Assembly: GCA_902793635.1 (NCBI GenBank)
Contig: CADBEA010000045.1
Span: forward strand, 1-37,078
Source: an uncultured Erysipelotrichaceae bacterium
GTDB taxonomy: Bacteria; Bacillota_I; Bacilli_A; Erysipelotrichales; Erysipelotrichaceae
Length of the DNA: 37,078 nucleotides
Reading direction: 5' to 3'
This document shows positions 5,506 to 31,866 of this stretch, piece after piece. Numbering within the stretch: position 1 is the stretch's first letter; each line of letters opens with the position of its first letter. Both the position numbers and the translations under genes were made by a program. The notes beneath the pieces were generated by a model that saw only the letters and a program-made list of their open reading frames with translations, did no database searches and had not been told where the DNA came from.

Positions 5506-7111
5506 TCGTCTTCCCCTTCTTTTTGCCGAACAGCTGGGTCGGTACCTTCAGCATGCCGGTGACAAACAGATAGATCGGAATGGCAACCGCGTACATGGCC
5601 AGCAGATGAACCGCTGACAGCAGCCGGCTGGCATGCAGACCATCCAGTCCGAAGAACTTGAAGATGGCGAAGACACCGTTCATGCACATACATGCGGCAA
5701 GGATCTTGCCCATCTGCAGGAACAGCCGCTGATATGACACATTGAAGACGTTATAGACACGGCTCAGCGACAGGAACAGGATCGTGAAGACAGCCAGGAT
5801 CGTCGATGCCATGGCACCGGCATAGCCCATATAACTGATCAGGAACCAGAATGTCGCGATCTTGACGATCAGACCGATGACGGTATAAAAGAGACTGTTC
5901 TGATTGAAACGCAGGGTGATCATCAGCCACGACGAGATCATCGCCATGGCAACCGCCACACCTTCCGCGATTGCCCAGACAAGCACCACGGCACCGGTAT
6001 CAGCCGCTGTTTTGCCGTAGAGGACGTAATAGAACTGCGGTGAAAGAATGCCCATGGTAAACAGCATCGGCACAGCCGCGTAAAGGAAACGGCCGAAAAT
6101 GCGTTCCACACCCCTGTCGATCAATGCTTCGCTGCGCCGTTCGACACCTTCGGCGATCTGCGGGATCTGCGGCGAAGAAAGCCAGCAGGCAAACAGAACC
6201 GGAATCTCGGCGATCCAGGCACTGTGAACCTGCAGCTGATGGTACACCTGCAGGGCGTCTCTCGCTTCCATGCCGGCGGCCTGATTGGCCGGCAGGAAGA
6301 AGACGGTGTTGATCAGCAGGATGCAGCCGTGCAGAACAGCTACCGTGAAGCCGGGCATGGCAAAAGCAAACAGTTCACCGATCGCTTTTTTCTTTTTGAC
6401 CTGCGGCAGCAGCTGGGCTTTCGCCTGGGCCTCAATACGGGGATATTTCAGCCGGTCAAAGAGAACATAGAAACCGATCGTTATCAGCAATGCCAGTATG
6501 GCAGCACCGATGATCAGATACAGCATGATTCCCTTCTGATCACGGTGGAACCAGATATAGGCAAGACTGCCGGCTGAACAAAGAGCGCCGAGCAGACCGT
6601 TGATCCACTGCGACCTGTCATCGACAGTCATTTCGTTCATGCCCTGATAGAATCCGCGGTACAGATACAATACGGCATACAGCAGAATAAAGGCGGCCAG
6701 AACATAAAACACATTCCTGACAGTCATCAGCGTCGCCGCATCAGCTGCCCCGCCAAAGATCAGCGCGGCCAGGGGTTCTGCGCCAAATGCCAGCGCGATG
6801 GCTAGCACACAGGCGAAGATCATCATCGCCACCGTTGTAAACAGCCGCAGATGCAGAACTGTCTTGTAGTCATTGCGGCTGCTGTAATTGGCACACATGG
6901 CCATCAGACCAAACGGCAGTGATGCCGCGAAAGTCCGGGTCACGAAAATCAGAAACGCGTGCAGTATGGCCAGACCGCTGAGCTGGGCGTTATCCGCCAG
7001 TGTGACATACGGAACGCAAAGGATCAGACCGGCGATCGTCGCCAGAAAAATACCTGTCGTACAGGACAGAGCACCGACTGTAAAAACGGATGACTTCCTG
7101 CGCCTGGCCAT
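5489..7111 (-). CDS. murJ: MOP-superfamily flippase, MurJ/YtgP/SpoVB type
   Basis: Polytopic membrane protein of 540 residues with about 14 hydrophobic segments, typical of the MOP/MVF exporters that flip lipid-linked cell-wall precursors (lipid II for MurJ/YtgP). The cytoplasmic ends are basic (MARRRKSS at the start, FGKKKGK at the end) and a basic loop (QVKKKKAIGE) sits mid-protein, separating the two six-to-seven-helix bundles. Assignment to YtgP/MurJ rather than a Wzx polysaccharide flippase rests on length (YtgP is about 540) and the linked pseudouridine synthase; there are no glycosyltransferases nearby. The start overlaps the upstream lipoprotein stop, with GAGGGTG as ribosome-binding site. 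Confidence 0.7.
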   Translation of the reverse strand: MARRRKSSVFTVGALSCTTGIFLATIAGLILCVPYVTLADNAQLSGLAILHAFLIFVTRTFAASLPFGLMAMCANYSSRNDYKTVLHLRLFTTVAMMIFACVLAIALAFGAEPLAALIFGGAADAATLMTVRNVFYVLAAFILLYAVLYLYRGFYQGMNEMTVDDRSQWINGLLGALCSAGSLAYIWFHRDQKGIMLYLIIGAAILALLITIGFYVLFDRLKYPRIEAQAKAQLLPQVKKKKAIGELFAFAMPGFTVAVLHGCILLINTVFFLPANQAAGMEARDALQVYHQLQVHSAWIAEIPVLFACWLSSPQIPQIAEGVERRSEALIDRGVERIFGRFLYAAVPMLFTMGILSPQFYYVLYGKTAADTGAVVLVWAIAEGVAVAMAMISSWLMITLRFNQNSLFYTVIGLIVKIATFWFLISYMGYAGAMASTILAVFTILFLSLSRVYNVFNVSYQRLFLQMGKILAACMCMNGVFAIFKFFGLDGLHASRLLSAVHLLAMYAVAIPIYLFVTGMLKVPTQLFGKKKGKTNDAAG

Positions 7112-7677
7112 CAGTCACCCTCACTTTCTGTCTGTTCTTCCGTCTGTTCCTCTGTCTTTTCTTCCGGAACATACGGATCTTCCGCATAATTGAGAGAAAG
7201 CTCGATAAACTCACGGTTGACCGTTTTGCGGCTGCGGTCTTTCCATTCCACCAGCACCCGCAGATTGACATGATCCTGGGCGCATTCACCGTTCAGCATG
7301 ATGCCTTTGACATAGCCGTTGTCCTTGTTGACCTGATTCGGGATCATGTTGATGGCATCACCGAAAATACCGGATGAGGGCATCATCTTTCCACTGGTCG
7401 AATATTCCATACCGTTTTCCACAGCCAGCACGACAACGTCAGTCATGGCCACTTTCGGTTCGTCGACAAAAACGTAATACCGGTATGTTCCATCCGGCAT
7501 TTCACTCATGGCACCGCTGACTGAATAGTAGCGGCTGATCGGCACAAACCTTGTCGCTTCCGCCAGGGAACGGCAGTAAGCTTCGTATTTGATCATATAT
7601 GTATCTTCTTCTGAACTTCTGCGGCAACCGCCAAGAAACGACAGGCACAGAGCCAGAACGAGCATAATTTTGCGCAT
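7111..7677 (-). CDS. predicted lipoprotein, unknown function
   Basis: A 188-aa secreted lipoprotein. A basic start (MRK), a hydrophobic core and the lipobox LGGC at about 15-18 predict cleavage before Cys18 and anchoring to the outer face of the membrane. The mature part is a compact beta-rich sequence followed by an acidic, low-complexity tail (EEKTEEQTEEQTE) of about 25 residues. I recognise no family. It is the first gene of an operon with the MurJ-type flippase and the pseudouridine synthase (1-base overlap with the flippase start), so a role at the cell envelope is a reasonable guess but not shown. The start is supported by GAGG upstream and a nearby promoter. Confidence 0.8.
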   Translation of the reverse strand: MRKIMLVLALCLSFLGGCRRSSEEDTYMIKYEAYCRSLAEATRFVPISRYYSVSGAMSEMPDGTYRYYVFVDEPKVAMTDVVVLAVENGMEYSTSGKMMPSSGIFGDAINMIPNQVNKDNGYVKGIMLNGECAQDHVNLRVLVEWKDRSRKTVNREFIELSLNYAEDPYVPEEKTEEQTEEQTESEGD

Positions 7678-7693
7678 AGAATACCTCGAAAGG

Positions 7694-7702
7694 ATTATAC
7701 CA
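7694..7702 (-). promoter_or_regulatory. extended -10 promoter of the lipoprotein-flippase operon
   Basis: The minus strand reads TGGTATAAT, an extended -10 with a perfect hexamer (7694-7699). I find no good -35, which fits an extended -10 promoter. It lies 17 bases upstream of the lipoprotein start. Confidence 0.65.
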
Positions 7703-7740
7703 TAGTTACCTGCCTCCCACTCAGAAAACCTCAGCGGCGG

Positions 7741-7768
7741 ACAAGAGAAAAGAGGCCTGCGCCTCTTT
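7741..7768 (-). terminator. tyrS terminator
   Basis: Minus-strand stem AAAGAGGC/GCCTCTTT, loop GCAG, then TTCTCTTGT. It is placed immediately after tyrS. Confidence 0.85.
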
Positions 7769-7776
7769 CAGATGTT

Positions 7777-9012
7777 TCAGATCAGACCGATGAACTGTTT
7801 CTTCTTGCCTTTGCGGATGATGAAGACTCTGCCGTCGATGGCCTTGGATCCGTCCATGACTTCGTTTTCATCGCTGTGTCTTTCGTTGTTGATACTGATG
7901 GCACCGGCAGAAAGCATTTCTCTTGCTTCGCGGCGGCTGGAACAGATCTTATTGTCGACCAGAAGATCGATCAGTTTCTGCCCTGCTTCCACCTTGACAT
8001 TGGGAACCTGCTTTGCGGCAAGCAGAATGTCGTCAGCACTCAGACCCTGCAGATCGCCGCCGAACAATGCTTCGGAGATCTGCACTGCCTTGCGGTATTC
8101 CTCTTCGCCGTGCAGACCGGTGATGATGTCTTTGGCGAGGGCCTTGTGGGCAAGACGCAGATGCGGTGCTTCGTTATGCTTCTTCTCGATTTCCATGATC
8201 TCTTCCGGTGTCAGGAAGGTCAGCTTCTTCAGATAGTCGATGATCATCGAATCTTCGAGGTTGATCAGATACTGATACATTTCATAGGAACTTGTCTTGT
8301 TCTTGTCAAGCCACAGGGCATTGCCTTCTGTCTTGCCGAACTTCTTGCCGGTCGAATCGGTAACCAGCGGCATAACCATGCCGTAGGCTGTCTTGTCGAG
8401 CTTTTTGCGGATCAGTTCGATGCCGCTTGTGATATTGCCCCACTGGTCGCTGCCTGCTACCTGCAGAGTGCAGTTGCGGTTTTCAAACAGCCACAGGAAG
8501 TCCAGTGCCTGCAGGATCATATAGCTGAATTCAGCATAGGTGATGCCGCTTTCCATACGCGACTTGACCTTGTCCTTCGCCAGCATGTAGTTGACGTTGA
8601 AGTATTTGCCGTAGTCACGCAGGAAGTCGATGACATTGATGTCTTTGGTCCAGTCGTAGTTGTTGACGACTTCGAAGCCGAAGATTTCTTCCGCCTGCTT
8701 TTTCAGGCCTTCGATATTCTTCGCGACTTCCTCATAAGTGATCATCGGTCTTTCCGCATCCGGTTTGGGATCGCCGATCAGACCGGTCGCACCGCCGACC
8801 AGAAGCAGCGGATGGTGTCCGTGCTGGGCCAGACGCTTGGAAATCAGGAACGAAGAATAGTGACCGATATGCATGGAGTCAGCTGTCGGGTCGGTGCCGA
8901 TGTAGAATGTCAGCCCGCCTTCGTTCAGTTTGTCGATCAGCTCCGGACTGGAAATATCCTGTACCAGTCCGCGCCAGACAAGTTCATCATAGAAAGTCAT
9001 TTTTTCACTCAT
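7777..9012 (-). CDS. tyrS: tyrosyl-tRNA synthetase
   Basis: Class I aminoacyl-tRNA synthetase charging tRNA-Tyr, cytoplasmic. The HIGH signature is HIGH at 48-51 (DSMHIGHYSS) and the KMSKS loop is KFGKT (224-228), the form usual in the bacterial TyrS1 group. The tyrosine pocket shows YMILQALDFLWL and GSDQWGNI. A C-terminal S4 domain (about 345-411; ICSSRREAREMLSAGAI) binds the tRNA long arm. The 411 aa are typical. Expression is under a tyrosine T-box riboswitch directly upstream, with its own promoter and a strong terminator after the gene, so this is a monocistronic unit. In Bacillus subtilis tyrS also lies close to ccpA. Confidence 0.98.
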   Translation of the reverse strand: MSEKMTFYDELVWRGLVQDISSPELIDKLNEGGLTFYIGTDPTADSMHIGHYSSFLISKRLAQHGHHPLLLVGGATGLIGDPKPDAERPMITYEEVAKNIEGLKKQAEEIFGFEVVNNYDWTKDINVIDFLRDYGKYFNVNYMLAKDKVKSRMESGITYAEFSYMILQALDFLWLFENRNCTLQVAGSDQWGNITSGIELIRKKLDKTAYGMVMPLVTDSTGKKFGKTEGNALWLDKNKTSSYEMYQYLINLEDSMIIDYLKKLTFLTPEEIMEIEKKHNEAPHLRLAHKALAKDIITGLHGEEEYRKAVQISEALFGGDLQGLSADDILLAAKQVPNVKVEAGQKLIDLLVDNKICSSRREAREMLSAGAISINNERHSDENEVMDGSKAIDGRVFIIRKGKKKQFIGLI

Positions 9013-11595: not shown

Positions 11596-12384
11596 TCATT
11601 TTTCCGCTTTTTCGAAAAGCCCGAGTGTTTCGCAGGCGTGCCAGATACCGTCATCATCCACGTCCCTGGTAATGAAATCAGCTCTGGCTTTGATCTCGTC
11701 ACAGGCATTACCCATCGCGACACACGTCCATTCGTCAAGGAACATGGACAGATCGTTCTTCGCATCACCGAACACGATCACATCCTTCTGATCACCGTCG
11801 AAATGCTGTAAGATCTGATGGATGCCGAATGCCTTGTCACACGGTTCGACGAACAGATATTCCTTATGGAACCGGCACCAGGGAAGTTCCTTCAATGTTT
11901 CCAGTTTTTCTTCTTCCGGATAGTAACAGCCGATATAGGCTTTATACAGGATCGGATAGTCATTCGGATTCAGGCCTGCGACTGCCTTTGTCTTCATATA
12001 CACATCATGGGTGAATTCATAGAACTTCTCATCCGGTGCATAGCGGGTATCACTGTTCTCCGGCTGAATCGCCCAGAGGTACCCCTTTTCCTGGCACTCG
12101 TTGACCAGGGCGATGACTTTCTTTCTGTCCAGCGGTGTGATGCCTAGCAGCTCATCATTGATCGTGACACCGTAACCGCCGTCGGAAACCATGTTATGAA
12201 AACCGAGTTCCTTCATGATATCAACAGCCAGCGCCTGGGCCTGGCCCGTGCATACCGCCAGAAAGTGACCGGCCTCTTCCAGTTTCAGAAGTGCTTCCTT
12301 CGTGGACGCGGGAATATAGGTATGGCCGTAGCCGCCGGCCGCGAGCGTTCCGTCGATATCAAAAAACAGATATTTTCTTTTCAT
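11596..12384 (-). CDS. Cof-type HAD-superfamily hydrolase
   Basis: Predicted sugar-phosphate or cofactor phosphatase of the HAD superfamily, cytoplasmic, 262 aa. Motif I is FFDIDGTL (nucleophile Asp9, acid/base Asp11), motif II Thr falls in the LAVCTGQA segment, and motif IV is VFGDAKNDLSM near the C terminus. The roughly 100-residue C2-type cap lies between them, as in Cof/YidA-like enzymes. A longer reading frame exists, but AAGGAG lies 6 bases before the ATG at 12384 and the upstream extension has no such site. The gene stands alone between two terminators. The substrate cannot be inferred. Confidence 0.88.
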   Translation of the reverse strand: MKRKYLFFDIDGTLAAGGYGHTYIPASTKEALLKLEEAGHFLAVCTGQAQALAVDIMKELGFHNMVSDGGYGVTINDELLGITPLDRKKVIALVNECQEKGYLWAIQPENSDTRYAPDEKFYEFTHDVYMKTKAVAGLNPNDYPILYKAYIGCYYPEEEKLETLKELPWCRFHKEYLFVEPCDKAFGIHQILQHFDGDQKDVIVFGDAKNDLSMFLDEWTCVAMGNACDEIKARADFITRDVDDDGIWHACETLGLFEKAEK

Positions 12385-28875: not shown

Positions 28876-29580
28876 TTATCCCAAAGCGACATCCAGCGCC
28901 ATCATGACACTGAATCCGGCCGCAAACGAAAGAAGATACGGCATGGCTGGTACGATCAGGCCGGCAATCAGGATGGTCAAAGCCCCGGCCAGCGGTTCCA
29001 CCGCGCCGGAAAGCACGCCCAGCCAGAACGATTTCATCCGGCTGCATCCTTCGGCATACAGCGGCATGGAAATGATGGCACCTTCCGGAAAGTTCTGTAT
29101 GGCAATGCCGAGGGAAAGCGCCAGCGCCGCTCCGGCGGTAATATGACCGGCGCCGTTTAACATGCCGGCATATATGACACCGACCGCCATGCCTTCCGGA
29201 ATGTTGTGAAGGGTCACTGCGAGCATCATCATGGCCGTTCTTGTCAGACGGCTTTTCGGACCTTCCGTCTGGTTGATGCTGCGGTGCAGATGCGGAATGA
29301 CATGGTCAAGAAACAGCAGGAACAGAATGCCGCACCAGAAACCGATAAAGGCCGGCAGAAAGGCCCAGCGTTCAAGACTGCCTGCCTGTTCGATCGCCGG
29401 GACGATCAGACTCCAGATGGACGCGGCTGTCATGACGCCGGCCGCAAAACCCATCAAGGCCCGCTGAACATTGATATCAAGATCCTTCTTCATGACGAAG
29501 ACGCCTGCCGAACCGGCCGCCGTTCCGATAAACGGGATCAGCAGACCGGTGACGACCGTCCGTATCATCAGAAGAACCAC
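28876..29580 (-). CDS. ZIP-family divalent metal transporter, apparently with internal deletion
   Basis: A 234-aa membrane transporter of the ZIP/ZupT type (Zn, Fe, Mn uptake). The two metal-site helices are intact: TLHNIPEGMAVG and IQNFPEGAIIS. The C terminus, however, reads LSFAAG directly joined to FSVMMALDVALG. In the family FAAG is normally followed by a VVEELIPE-containing helix and a loop of about 25-30 residues before the terminal GFxxMMxLDVALG. The protein is also shorter than the usual 255-270. The reading frame is preserved, so this looks like an in-frame deletion. The start overlaps the HMA gene by 13 bases. Transport activity is doubtful. Confidence 0.85.
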   Translation of the reverse strand: MVLLMIRTVVTGLLIPFIGTAAGSAGVFVMKKDLDINVQRALMGFAAGVMTAASIWSLIVPAIEQAGSLERWAFLPAFIGFWCGILFLLFLDHVIPHLHRSINQTEGPKSRLTRTAMMMLAVTLHNIPEGMAVGVIYAGMLNGAGHITAGAALALSLGIAIQNFPEGAIISMPLYAEGCSRMKSFWLGVLSGAVEPLAGALTILIAGLIVPAMPYLLSFAAGFSVMMALDVALG

Positions 29581-29816
29581 CCCTTCTTCTCATACGGCTC
29601 ACTGACGACATCCGTGCAGGTATAGCCGGTTTCATTGACGGCGTTTTTCAGTAAATCCGCATTGACTTCTTCCTCATGCACAAAGGACGCTTCTTTGGCG
29701 CGGCGGGAAGCCGTGACTTTCTTCGCGGTCGGTACGGTTTTGCGGATCACGTCGCAGATATGCGATTCACACATGCCGCACATCATGCCGTCTATTTTCA
29801 GAGTTGTTCTGTACAT
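29568..29816 (-). CDS. heavy-metal-associated (HMA) domain protein
   Basis: An 82-aa HMA-type metallochaperone-like protein. It has the metal loop GMMCGMCE (MxCxxC, about residues 10-17) and a ferredoxin-like beta-alpha-beta pattern ending in ETGYTCTDV. The middle (VTASRRAKEASFVHEE) is more basic than in classic CopZ. It probably binds Cu(I) or Zn(II) through the two cysteines. First gene of the six-gene operon, with AGAGG before the ATG; its stop overlaps the ZIP start. It could hand metal to, or take it from, the ZIP protein, or act as a sensor or buffer. Which metal is not decided by sequence. Confidence 0.85.
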   Translation of the reverse strand: MYRTTLKIDGMMCGMCESHICDVIRKTVPTAKKVTASRRAKEASFVHEEEVNADLLKNAVNETGYTCTDVVSEPYEKKGWFF

Positions 29817-29931: not shown

Positions 29932-29957
29932 GAAAAAGAGGCAGATCATTCTGCCTC
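29931..29957 (-). terminator. terminator of the IIB-ROK fusion gene
   Basis: Minus-strand perfect 8-bp stem GAGGCAGA/TCTGCCTC with the TGA stop codon in the loop, then TTTTTCTT. Confidence 0.9.
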
Positions 29958-31421
29958 GTTGTCTTCATGAGCACGGTATGTTTCCTGGGTACGGTTGAGC
30001 CGCTGCTTTGAGAGATATTCCACACACAGTATCATCCCGCCGACAAACATATATTCGATCACGTCGTCGGTCTTGATCAGTTCCGGAATGAATTCTCTCT
30101 GCATGTATTCCGCCAGCGCATCCCTCACCTGATCCAGATCATAGATCATATCACAGTAGATGACGATCAGTTCCGGGTCGAAATTAGCGATGATAGTCAG
30201 CAGGTATTTCGTGACGACTTCCAGCGATCCTTCCGGCGTCCTGACCAGTTCCGAAGGATCCCTGCTGTATCTGATGATCTTGTGCACATACTGCATCTCA
30301 CCGGCCAGATTGTTGCGGCCGGTAAACAGAGCGCCGTTGACCACATTGCCGACACCGGCTGTGCGGGCCGCCCGGGGATGGAAATAGAAGCTCAGGTTAC
30401 GGGTGTTTTTCTGCAGTCCGTAATAACCGAGAGCCATCGAATTGGCATCGTTGACGAAGATGAAAGGAATCTGATATTTGCCGACGAAACGGCTTTCCAC
30501 ATCGACATCATAGATGCCGGCTGAGCGGAATGTCATATGTCCCTTCCAGAACACGCCCGGTGAATTGATGCAGACCATGCGGATCCCCGGGAAACGGGCC
30601 ATTTCAAAGTCCAGCATATCTTCCAGGTCACGGATCTCAAAACGCTGTTTGATGACTTCATCTTCATGGGTGACCAGACCGGTATCATAGATACGGTAAA
30701 TGAAGCGGATCGATTCATATTCGACAATCACTGATATGATCAGCATCCGCGGTGTATTGCGAAATTCCATGCGTTCGGCCGGAACCATCTTCGCCTTTTT
30801 TTCCAGATCGTTTTCGAGAATGCTGCGGTTGACGAAATCGAGCAGTTCGCTGACGTTGTATGCTGCGAAGATCGAAGCCGGGATCTTGAGCACCAGCTTG
30901 TCCTTCAGGACTTCACGGATCTTATCGTAGTCATAGGCGATCTGCGGTGCCAGCAGGATCATATCGCAGTCATAGCCTTCCACAAAAAGATTGTTGTAGC
31001 TTACCGCTTCAAACGTCATATTCAGTTTCAGCAGTTTGGCCGCGTTGTTCAGCTTTTCCTTGAAAAACGATGTCGTGATGGCACTGGAGCAACATAAGAG
31101 AATACGTCTTGTGGAAGTGACCTTCTGCTTGAGAACAGCCGATACCATTTCCTGGAACAGTTCCTGGGCATGTTCAAGATCCTTCAGTTCGAAGTGCAGA
31201 TAAAAAACCGCCTCACTGGTATGCTTGTTGACGACGCTCATTTCGACGACGACGAAGTTTTCCAGCAGGTAAAAAGACGTGGTTCCGCGGGCATATTCCG
31301 TATCAACGATAATATGGTCGCCCTTCTCATGGGAAAACGAAATGATATACTCGCTGCTCTCCTGTCTGGCAGCCCAGTTTTTAAAATCCTGCAGCAGTCT
31401 TTCCGTGTTCTCTTCGTACAT
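29946..31421 (-). CDS. PTS IIB-like / ROK-domain fusion protein
   Basis: A 491-aa protein with an unusual fusion. Residues 1-100 are an unrecognised alpha/beta region. Residues 104-210 match lactose/cellobiose-type PTS IIB: ILLCCSSAITTSFFKEKL carries the phospho-Cys loop (C111 in CSSAITTS), and ILLAPQIAYDYDKI is the family's second motif. Residues about 225-480 are ROK-like, with FVNDANSMALGYYGL and NGALFTGRNNLAGEMQYV. The ROK zinc motif (CxCGxxGCxE) that normally follows is absent, and no DNA-binding helix-turn-helix is visible. It may sense PTS phosphorylation state and control or bind a sugar-related partner. It is monocistronic, with its own terminator. Confidence 0.82.
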   Translation of the reverse strand: MYEENTERLLQDFKNWAARQESSEYIISFSHEKGDHIIVDTEYARGTTSFYLLENFVVVEMSVVNKHTSEAVFYLHFELKDLEHAQELFQEMVSAVLKQKVTSTRRILLCCSSAITTSFFKEKLNNAAKLLKLNMTFEAVSYNNLFVEGYDCDMILLAPQIAYDYDKIREVLKDKLVLKIPASIFAAYNVSELLDFVNRSILENDLEKKAKMVPAERMEFRNTPRMLIISVIVEYESIRFIYRIYDTGLVTHEDEVIKQRFEIRDLEDMLDFEMARFPGIRMVCINSPGVFWKGHMTFRSAGIYDVDVESRFVGKYQIPFIFVNDANSMALGYYGLQKNTRNLSFYFHPRAARTAGVGNVVNGALFTGRNNLAGEMQYVHKIIRYSRDPSELVRTPEGSLEVVTKYLLTIIANFDPELIVIYCDMIYDLDQVRDALAEYMQREFIPELIKTDDVIEYMFVGGMILCVEYLSKQRLNRTQETYRAHEDNEAE

Positions 31422-31480: not shown

Positions 31481-31507
31481 AAAAAAACACATGGCAAAAC
31501 CATGTGT
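31481..31507 (-). terminator. terminator after the small membrane protein gene
   Basis: Minus-strand stem ACACATGG/CCATGTGT, loop TTTTG, then seven T. The stem begins at the gene's stop codon. Confidence 0.9.
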
Positions 31508-31866
31508 CAGCCCATTCTCTGCATGGCGATGACGATCTGAACAACCAGCCAGATGGCACCAAGAACAATGCCGACCCAGGCTGCGTAGTAATCCTTGTCG
31601 CGGCGGCTGCCGTTCATTTTCAGTCCGGCGATGCCGAAACCGATCGCCATCAGTGAGAAGATTCCCCAGAAGCCGAGAAAGATGGAAAAGATGGAAGATA
31701 CCAGCGCATACCAGCAGAAAATCGTGCTGAGCGTGCTGCGTCTTGCGGTTCTGCTTTTTTCCATTTCTTCTTCATGTTTGCGGATTGCTTCCTCACGTCT
31801 CTGTTCTTCTTCTATGGAACGCTGCGAACGCGGTTTTGTTTTAGATTTCTTTAACTTATCTGCCAT
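31507..31866 (-). CDS. small membrane protein with charged N-terminal coiled coil
   Basis: A 119-aa protein. A very basic/acidic N terminus of about 50 residues (KLKKSKTKPRSQRS, then EEEQRREEAIRKHEEEMEK, a likely helix) is followed by about three hydrophobic segments in the C-terminal half (TIFCWYALVSSIFSIFLGFW, FSLMAIGFGIAGL, AAWVGIVLGAIWLVVQIVI). The pattern is like DUF4190-type small membrane proteins, but I do not claim a family. An upstream TTG is in frame; GAGGA 5-6 bases before the ATG at 31866 decides the start. It has its own promoter and terminator. Function unknown. Confidence 0.75.
   Translation of the reverse strand: MADKLKKSKTKPRSQRSIEEEQRREEAIRKHEEEMEKSRTARRSTLSTIFCWYALVSSIFSIFLGFWGIFSLMAIGFGIAGLKMNGSRRDKDYYAAWVGIVLGAIWLVVQIVIAMQRMG

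Follow-up and report, generated by a model that had tools for sequence, protein, structure and literature searches.

The window, a stretch of 37,078 nucleotides of DNA from an uncultured Erysipelotrichaceae bacterium, carries a gene whose product combines a IIB domain of the Lac/Cel type with a ROK domain in a single chain. From comparison of sequences, the best reading of the protein, at a probability of roughly 55%, is a PTS signal protein of the cytosol that takes no part in transport, holds a sugar pocket of the pseudokinase kind and exerts its effect by protein contacts. A first-pass annotation of the same DNA had placed both domains in one open reading frame at 29946-31421. The frame is real at these positions and each domain is individually significant; the annotation had the coordinates right, gave no strand and overlooked the missing ATP-binding motifs. 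The gene, its parts and the hairpins at its edges are as follows.

31486..31508, minus strand: terminator-like hairpin after the upstream gene
29946..31421, minus strand: whole gene, N-terminal domain, IIB-Lac/Cel domain, linker and pseudo-ROK domain (ATG start, open reading frame of 491 aa, Pfam/NCBIfam, dN/dS)
31110..31421, minus strand: N-terminal domain, residues 1-104, alpha-beta5-alpha (AF2 pLDDT 86.7, pTM 0.80; conservation; fold match)
30822..31109, minus strand: IIB-Lac/Cel domain, residues 105-200 (PF02302, TIGR00853, family profile against 1h9c)
31089..31091, minus strand: Cys111 codon, IIB phospho-Cys position (aligned with the IIB-Cel P-loop Cys; invariant)
30942..30947, minus strand: Pro159-Gln160 codons, IIB-Cel 'APQ' motif (invariant in 72/72)
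30756..30821, minus strand: variable charged linker, residues 201-222 (lowest conservation in the protein, 0.30)
29988..30755, minus strand: pseudo-ROK domain, residues 223-478 (PF00480; ATP and zinc motifs missing)
30447..30452, minus strand: N324-D325 codons, ROK 'ND' sugar/catalytic pair (aligned with ND.N of ROK kinases)
30297..30299, minus strand: E375 codon, first residue of the ROK ExGH motif, here E-M-Q-Y (E in 62/65)
29938..29957, minus strand: terminator-like hairpin at the stop codon of the gene

Comparison of the gene with three orthologues from Solobacterium and other Erysipelotrichaceae MAGs (79-95% identity) gave dN/dS values of 0.055, 0.115 and 0.118, which argues that the product is under selection, and constraint extends to all three parts of the protein. 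Because it is flanked by the two terminator-like hairpins, the gene is probably monocistronic. It adjoins lepA/hemW, and no IIC gene was recognised next to it. Downstream lie genes for a small HMA metal-binding protein (29568-29816) and then a ZIP-like transporter (28876-29580, named by reading only), with overlapping ends.

The IIB domain is recognised by several independent searches. Residues 106-170 match the PTS_IIB model PF02302 (E 8.5e-7; 30.0 bits against a cut-off of 23.6), and residues 99-175 match the NCBIfam model TIGR00853 (E 1.2e-12, under its whole-protein cut-off). PDB sequence matches at residues 105-185 are IIB-Cel/Chb chains, and the family profile finds IIB-Chb (PDB 1h9c) at 4e-16. 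Conservation was followed in an alignment of 65 distinct fused members, or 72 members including seven split forms. The annotation had pointed to a IIB phospho-Cys loop. In alignments C111 stands at the IIB phospho-Cys position, and it never varies, be it in the fused (65/65) or in the split (7/7) members. The two checks that the annotation had named, HMM support for the domains and conservation of C111, thus both came out in favour of the observation. The loop residues T116 and T117 are kept in 64/65 and 63/65 fused members, respectively. Identity across the family is only about 30% overall, yet C111, P159 and Q160 are invariant in 72/72, and judged by conservation the IIB phosphorylation loop is the most strictly constrained part of the protein. 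The P-loop phospho-Cys and the APQ motif are common to the protein and the IIB(Lac/Cel/Chb) subunits of the PTS. Those subunits are stand-alone proteins of about 100 aa that phosphorylate sugar on IIC, whereas the IIB domain in the window lies within a 491-aa protein and has no adjacent IIC.

The ROK half was also confirmed as such. Residues 266-376 match PF00480 (ROK; E 3.2e-8; 33.9 bits against a cut-off of 22.9), the best stretch spanning positions 43-155 of the 294 in the model, so that IIB and ROK both lie above the Pfam gathering scores. PDB sequence matches at about residues 314-379 are ROK kinases, and the family profile matches ROK proteins, e.g., 2hoe at 8e-12. ROK kinases are defined by DxGxT, a catalytic Asp, ExGH and a zinc motif (PMC5458393). 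The protein shares the ND.N and AGE loops of the ROK core with ROK sugar kinases (NagK, NanK, glucokinase), whereas its family is devoid of the ATP motifs, ExGH and the zinc motif and is fused to IIB and an N-terminal domain. DxGGT, GTGxG and the adenosine GG motif were found in 0/65 fused members, the rare DxGxT strings in these members all lying outside the ROK domain, and ExGH was also found in 0/65. N324 is present in 62/65 members. The catalytic D325 is present in 42/65, including the window member, and absent in 23/65, where Asn is the usual substitute. G289, G374, P446 and G461 are invariant in the 65 fused members. Replacement of D6 (of DxGxT) or the change D105N abolished the activity of NagK (PMC10031466). 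Since the ATP motifs are missing and D6 and D105 are essential in NagK, the ROK half is by sequence a pseudokinase. The kinase function considered by the annotation is not supported, with DxGxT, GTGxG and the adenosine GG absent in 65/65 and the catalytic Asp in 23/65 members, and such a function of the fused protein is unlikely. The annotation had correctly reported the lack of a zinc motif; CxCGxxGC was found in 0/65 fused members. This absence is not decisive, because FnNanK is likewise without the motif (PMC5458393).

The N-terminal stretch of about 100 residues, unrecognised in the annotation, is a separate conserved domain with the confident AF2 model listed above, and its H76-F77 pair is invariant in the 65 fused members. 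Its top fold match (rank 1 in Foldseek, E 0.078, prob 0.99) is the TriTu immunity protein 7zhm_C, with Z 9.3, rmsd 2.4 and 82 of 87 residues aligned at 12% identity; type III secretion chaperones come next (SycT, Z 7.8). The TriTu model PF24689 gave a weak full-length match to the protein (E 0.16; 12.2 bits against a cut-off of 27). Membership of the TriTu sequence family was rejected at this score, and since only 2/40 members match the Pfam model at E 1, the resemblance is claimed for the fold only and not as homology. No toxin gene was recognised near the window gene. The TriTu immunity protein binds its toxin and SycT is a chaperone, and both are protein-binding modules; the modelled resemblance in fold would thus fit an output by protein contact. 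A PPR-type match of the N-domain profile covered 14 residues with no stretch passing alone and was discarded, and a full-chain AlphaFold2 model from four sequences (pLDDT 41) was set aside. The spacing between IIB and ROK is about 42 residues, with 37-46 residues from F185 to L227 across the 65 fused members, and the linker occupies the site at which the winged helix is located in the split ROK partner. These 37-46 residues are too short for a winged helix. No HTH match was found in the fused protein (Pfam), and a search for PRD, HTH and AAA+ domains in the window protein was also negative (Pfam, E 10), in agreement with the annotation, which had reported no DNA-binding domain.

Components that could supply phosphate to the IIB domain are present, as the window genome encodes EI, HPr and one IIA-Lac. 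Co-occurrence was surveyed in 70 genomes of the genus, 32 with the fusion and 38 without. Of the genomes with the fusion 30/32 have IIA-Lac, and of those that lack the fusion 13/38 (p 2.7e-7, shared ancestry uncorrected). The same held when only genomes of 2 Mb or more were counted, with 29/30 versus 7/23 (p 2.3e-7, again uncorrected for shared ancestry), and in these genomes the controls IIA-Glc (30/30 versus 22/23, p 0.43) and IIA-Fru/Mtl (25/30 versus 17/23, p 0.5) were not significant. This pattern is what would be expected if IIA-Lac were the phosphoryl donor. Most family members are orphan genes. The member in L132 is preceded by a GH1-BglG-IIBC-IIA cluster. A linkage to GH1 glycosidases that was apparent at first was rejected, as these occurred in 4/150 places near the family and in 4/150 near control genes 5-6 positions off; with no general enrichment of GH1 neighbours over the control, function cannot be read from context. 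Stand-alone IIB-Cel genes with no IIC or IIA beside them adjoin fused members in L124 (6239-6541, beside the member at 6550-7947) and L131 (8674-8985, beside the member at 7247-8647).

Some genomes of the sister family contain a split form, in which the N-domain and IIB make up a protein of their own of about 200-205 aa. Two genomes, L096 and L097, have an N-IIB gene that overlaps a downstream pseudo-ROK gene of 309-322 aa. The N-terminus of these pseudo-ROK partners is winged-helix-like, with matches to HTH_DeoR (0.00096), TFIIE-beta and FeoC in L096 and to PCI in L097, all under the Pfam cut-offs, and a winged helix is probable in both. In a tree of ROK halves the L096 and L097 proteins form the sister group of the fused ones as a whole (84/97), and winged-helix pseudo-ROKs without a IIB neighbour fall outside; two of the latter kind are also encoded in the window genome. 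The split forms all lie on one side of one branch in the N-IIB tree (65/89). A pseudo-ROK regulator probably came first, was next joined by N-IIB in an operon and was finally fused to it, losing its winged helix; the linker of the fused proteins, which spans only 37-46 residues, is the reason for this order. Split N-IIB genes in L099 (7391-7966), L102 (8876-9451), L104 (7235-7810) and L037 (9247-9831) have a maltose/galactoside O-acetyltransferase gene directly after them. Such acetyltransferases make up 4/150 near neighbours of the family and are not among the 25 commonest families near 150 control genes. Winged-helix-like pseudo-ROKs without IIB (L006 1135-2079, L116 7260-8300, L117 1580-2557 and L119 7414-8457) are followed by PHP-type phosphatase-like genes, and a similar gene adjoins fused members in L124 and L135 (by reading only).

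The preferred mechanism would run as follows. IIA-Lac/Cel~P, fed by EI and HPr, would phosphorylate Cys111 while lactose- or cellobiose-type sugars are not flowing. Sugar uptake would drain phosphate from IIB, so that the state of IIB would report transport. The pseudo-ROK domain may bind a sugar or phospho-sugar, or it may serve only as a surface for dimerisation and IIB docking, since the outer sugar residues N324 and E375 are kept and the ATP chemistry is gone. The output would be protein contact through the N-domain, ROK dimerisation or both, e.g., with winged-helix pseudo-ROK regulators of the same genome. The annotation had already suggested a sensor phosphorylated by the PTS, and this part fits the invariance of C111 and P159-Q160, the presence of EI, HPr and IIA-Lac and the co-occurrence with IIA-Lac; the kinase role that it also considered is not supported. 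The missing ATP motifs of ROK, the overlapping N-IIB and pseudo-ROK genes of the split form and the precedents of Mlc and of IIB-type domains in PTS-controlled regulators speak for the mechanism as well. Several points count against it. D325 (42/65) and E375 (62/65) are not universal, and a DNA-binding domain is lacking in the fused form. Most members are orphans without an excess of glycosidase neighbours, the window gene itself being probably monocistronic beside lepA/hemW. The co-occurrence with IIA-Lac is uncorrected for phylogeny, and the winged helix of the split partners stays under the Pfam cut-offs.

The closest competitor, itself unlikely, is a phosphate sink or adaptor in which IIB competes for IIA-Lac/Cel~P and tunes transport, with the ROK half as a mere dimerisation scaffold. 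The invariant Cys, the co-occurrence with IIA-Lac and the stand-alone IIB-Cel genes beside the two members in L124 and L131 are consistent with such a role. A bare scaffold would have no need to keep N324, E375, G289, G374 and G461 at 62-65/65, and in the split form IIB is paired with a probable DNA-binding regulator. Still less probable is a soluble PEP-dependent sugar kinase, in which Cys111~P of IIB would pass its phosphate to a sugar in the ROK pocket and so replace ATP. The loss of ATP motifs from a pocket in which N324 and E375 stay at 62/65 would suit this chemistry, as would the invariant phospho-Cys, and the window member keeps D325 and has Y378 in place of the His of ExGH, where Tyr is known from LmNanK (PMC5458393). 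The catalytic Asp is replaced by Asn or another residue in 23/65 members, one of the four paralogues in the window genome has N-F and Q for N-D and E, known IIB domains phosphorylate sugar on membrane IIC, and a metabolic operon context is generally lacking, all of which argue against a kinase of this kind. Restricting it to members in which D325 is retained, and regarding those with Asn as derivatives used in signalling, makes a PEP-driven soluble kinase no more credible, and if anything slightly less so.

The remaining alternatives are more doubtful again. With C110-C111 adjacent in the window member and in 32/65, and with genes for an HMA metal-binding protein and a ZIP-like transporter downstream, the Cys pair might act as a redox or metal sensor instead of a site of phosphorylation. 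This is highly improbable, as Ser takes the place of C110 in 30/65, in contrast to the preservation of C111 and the entire IIB loop (TTS, PQ), the neighbours differ among orthologues and paralogues, and a terminator-like hairpin stands between the window gene and the HMA gene. The least credible is a ROK sugar kinase of the usual ATP-dependent kind, to which IIB would be an accessory. Its Pfam ROK match above gathering and the D325 of the window member speak for it, and the loss of DxGGT, GTGxG, ExGH and the adenosine GG in 65/65, in a fold in which the equivalents of D6 and D105 are essential in NagK (PMC10031466), leaves it with hardly any probability.

The preferred signal protein resembles known regulators in part. 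The ROK repressor Mlc (DgsA) of E. coli is sequestered by EIICB(Glc) in its dephosphorylated state (PMC3901232). As proposed for the window family, the Mlc-EIICB(Glc) system ties a ROK protein to a PTS IIB, the phosphorylation of which reports uptake. In the Mlc system a glucose-type IIB forms part of a transporter in the membrane, and Mlc carries a winged helix. In the window family a soluble IIB of the Lac/Cel type shares its chain with the ROK half or is encoded next to it, and the fused form is without a DNA-binding domain. IIB-type domains are also found inside PTS-controlled regulators; the Cys affects activity in CelR, and no phosphorylation of the IIB-like domain has been reported for LevR-like regulators (PMC10864463). 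The PRD-type regulators (LevR/CelR, MtlR, LicR) are like the window protein, as read here, in using IIB-type domains in regulation and not in transport. They contain PRD, HTH and AAA+ or Mga-like domains together with IIB(Gat) and have no ROK domain, whereas none of those domains is present in the window protein by Pfam. The protein is therefore a member of neither the Mlc-type nor the PRD-type regulators, as its IIB type and architecture differ and it has no PRD or DNA-binding domain. If the preferred reading is true, control of a ROK protein by IIB evolved anew with a IIB of another, unrelated kind and was then hard-wired, first as an operon of N-IIB and a pseudo-ROK regulator and then as one chain that neither uses ATP nor binds DNA. 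The question whether a pseudokinase ROK domain reads phosphocysteine on IIB is thereby made testable.

Full-length members were found in about 76/315 genomes of the order (family profile, E below 1e-100), i.e., in 40 genomes of the window's family and 36/43 genomes of the sister family. Outside the order, a sample of 392 genomes of the class yielded no full-length members, only IIB-alone or ROK-alone matches, and no relatives were found among viral contigs. The single window protein as query gave matches in 12/195 sampled genomes of its family. Papers on IIB-ROK fusions were not found in the open-licence literature, and this architecture, its pseudokinase state and the paralogous family that spans the order are apparently undescribed; the parts and the principle were already known. 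Copy number reaches six per genome within the genus, and with up to six copies in gut and rumen Erysipelotrichales the family may, if the preferred reading is true, form a large and so far overlooked part of sugar signalling in these bacteria. In L043 (8228-10303) a member seems to be fused to a ribosomal-protein-like start, an appearance created by a run of N from masking. The window genome has four copies, the window gene and three full-length paralogues at 33-38% identity, one of the four having N-F and Q instead of N-D and E. Paralogue L031 (738-2600) has 620 aa and extends about 150 aa past the usual C-terminus, possibly by loss of a stop codon. Three bases beyond paralogue L032 (10259-11671) begins a gene for a small protein (11675-11977) that reads like a STAS-domain anti-sigma-factor antagonist, which suggests that the two are co-transcribed.
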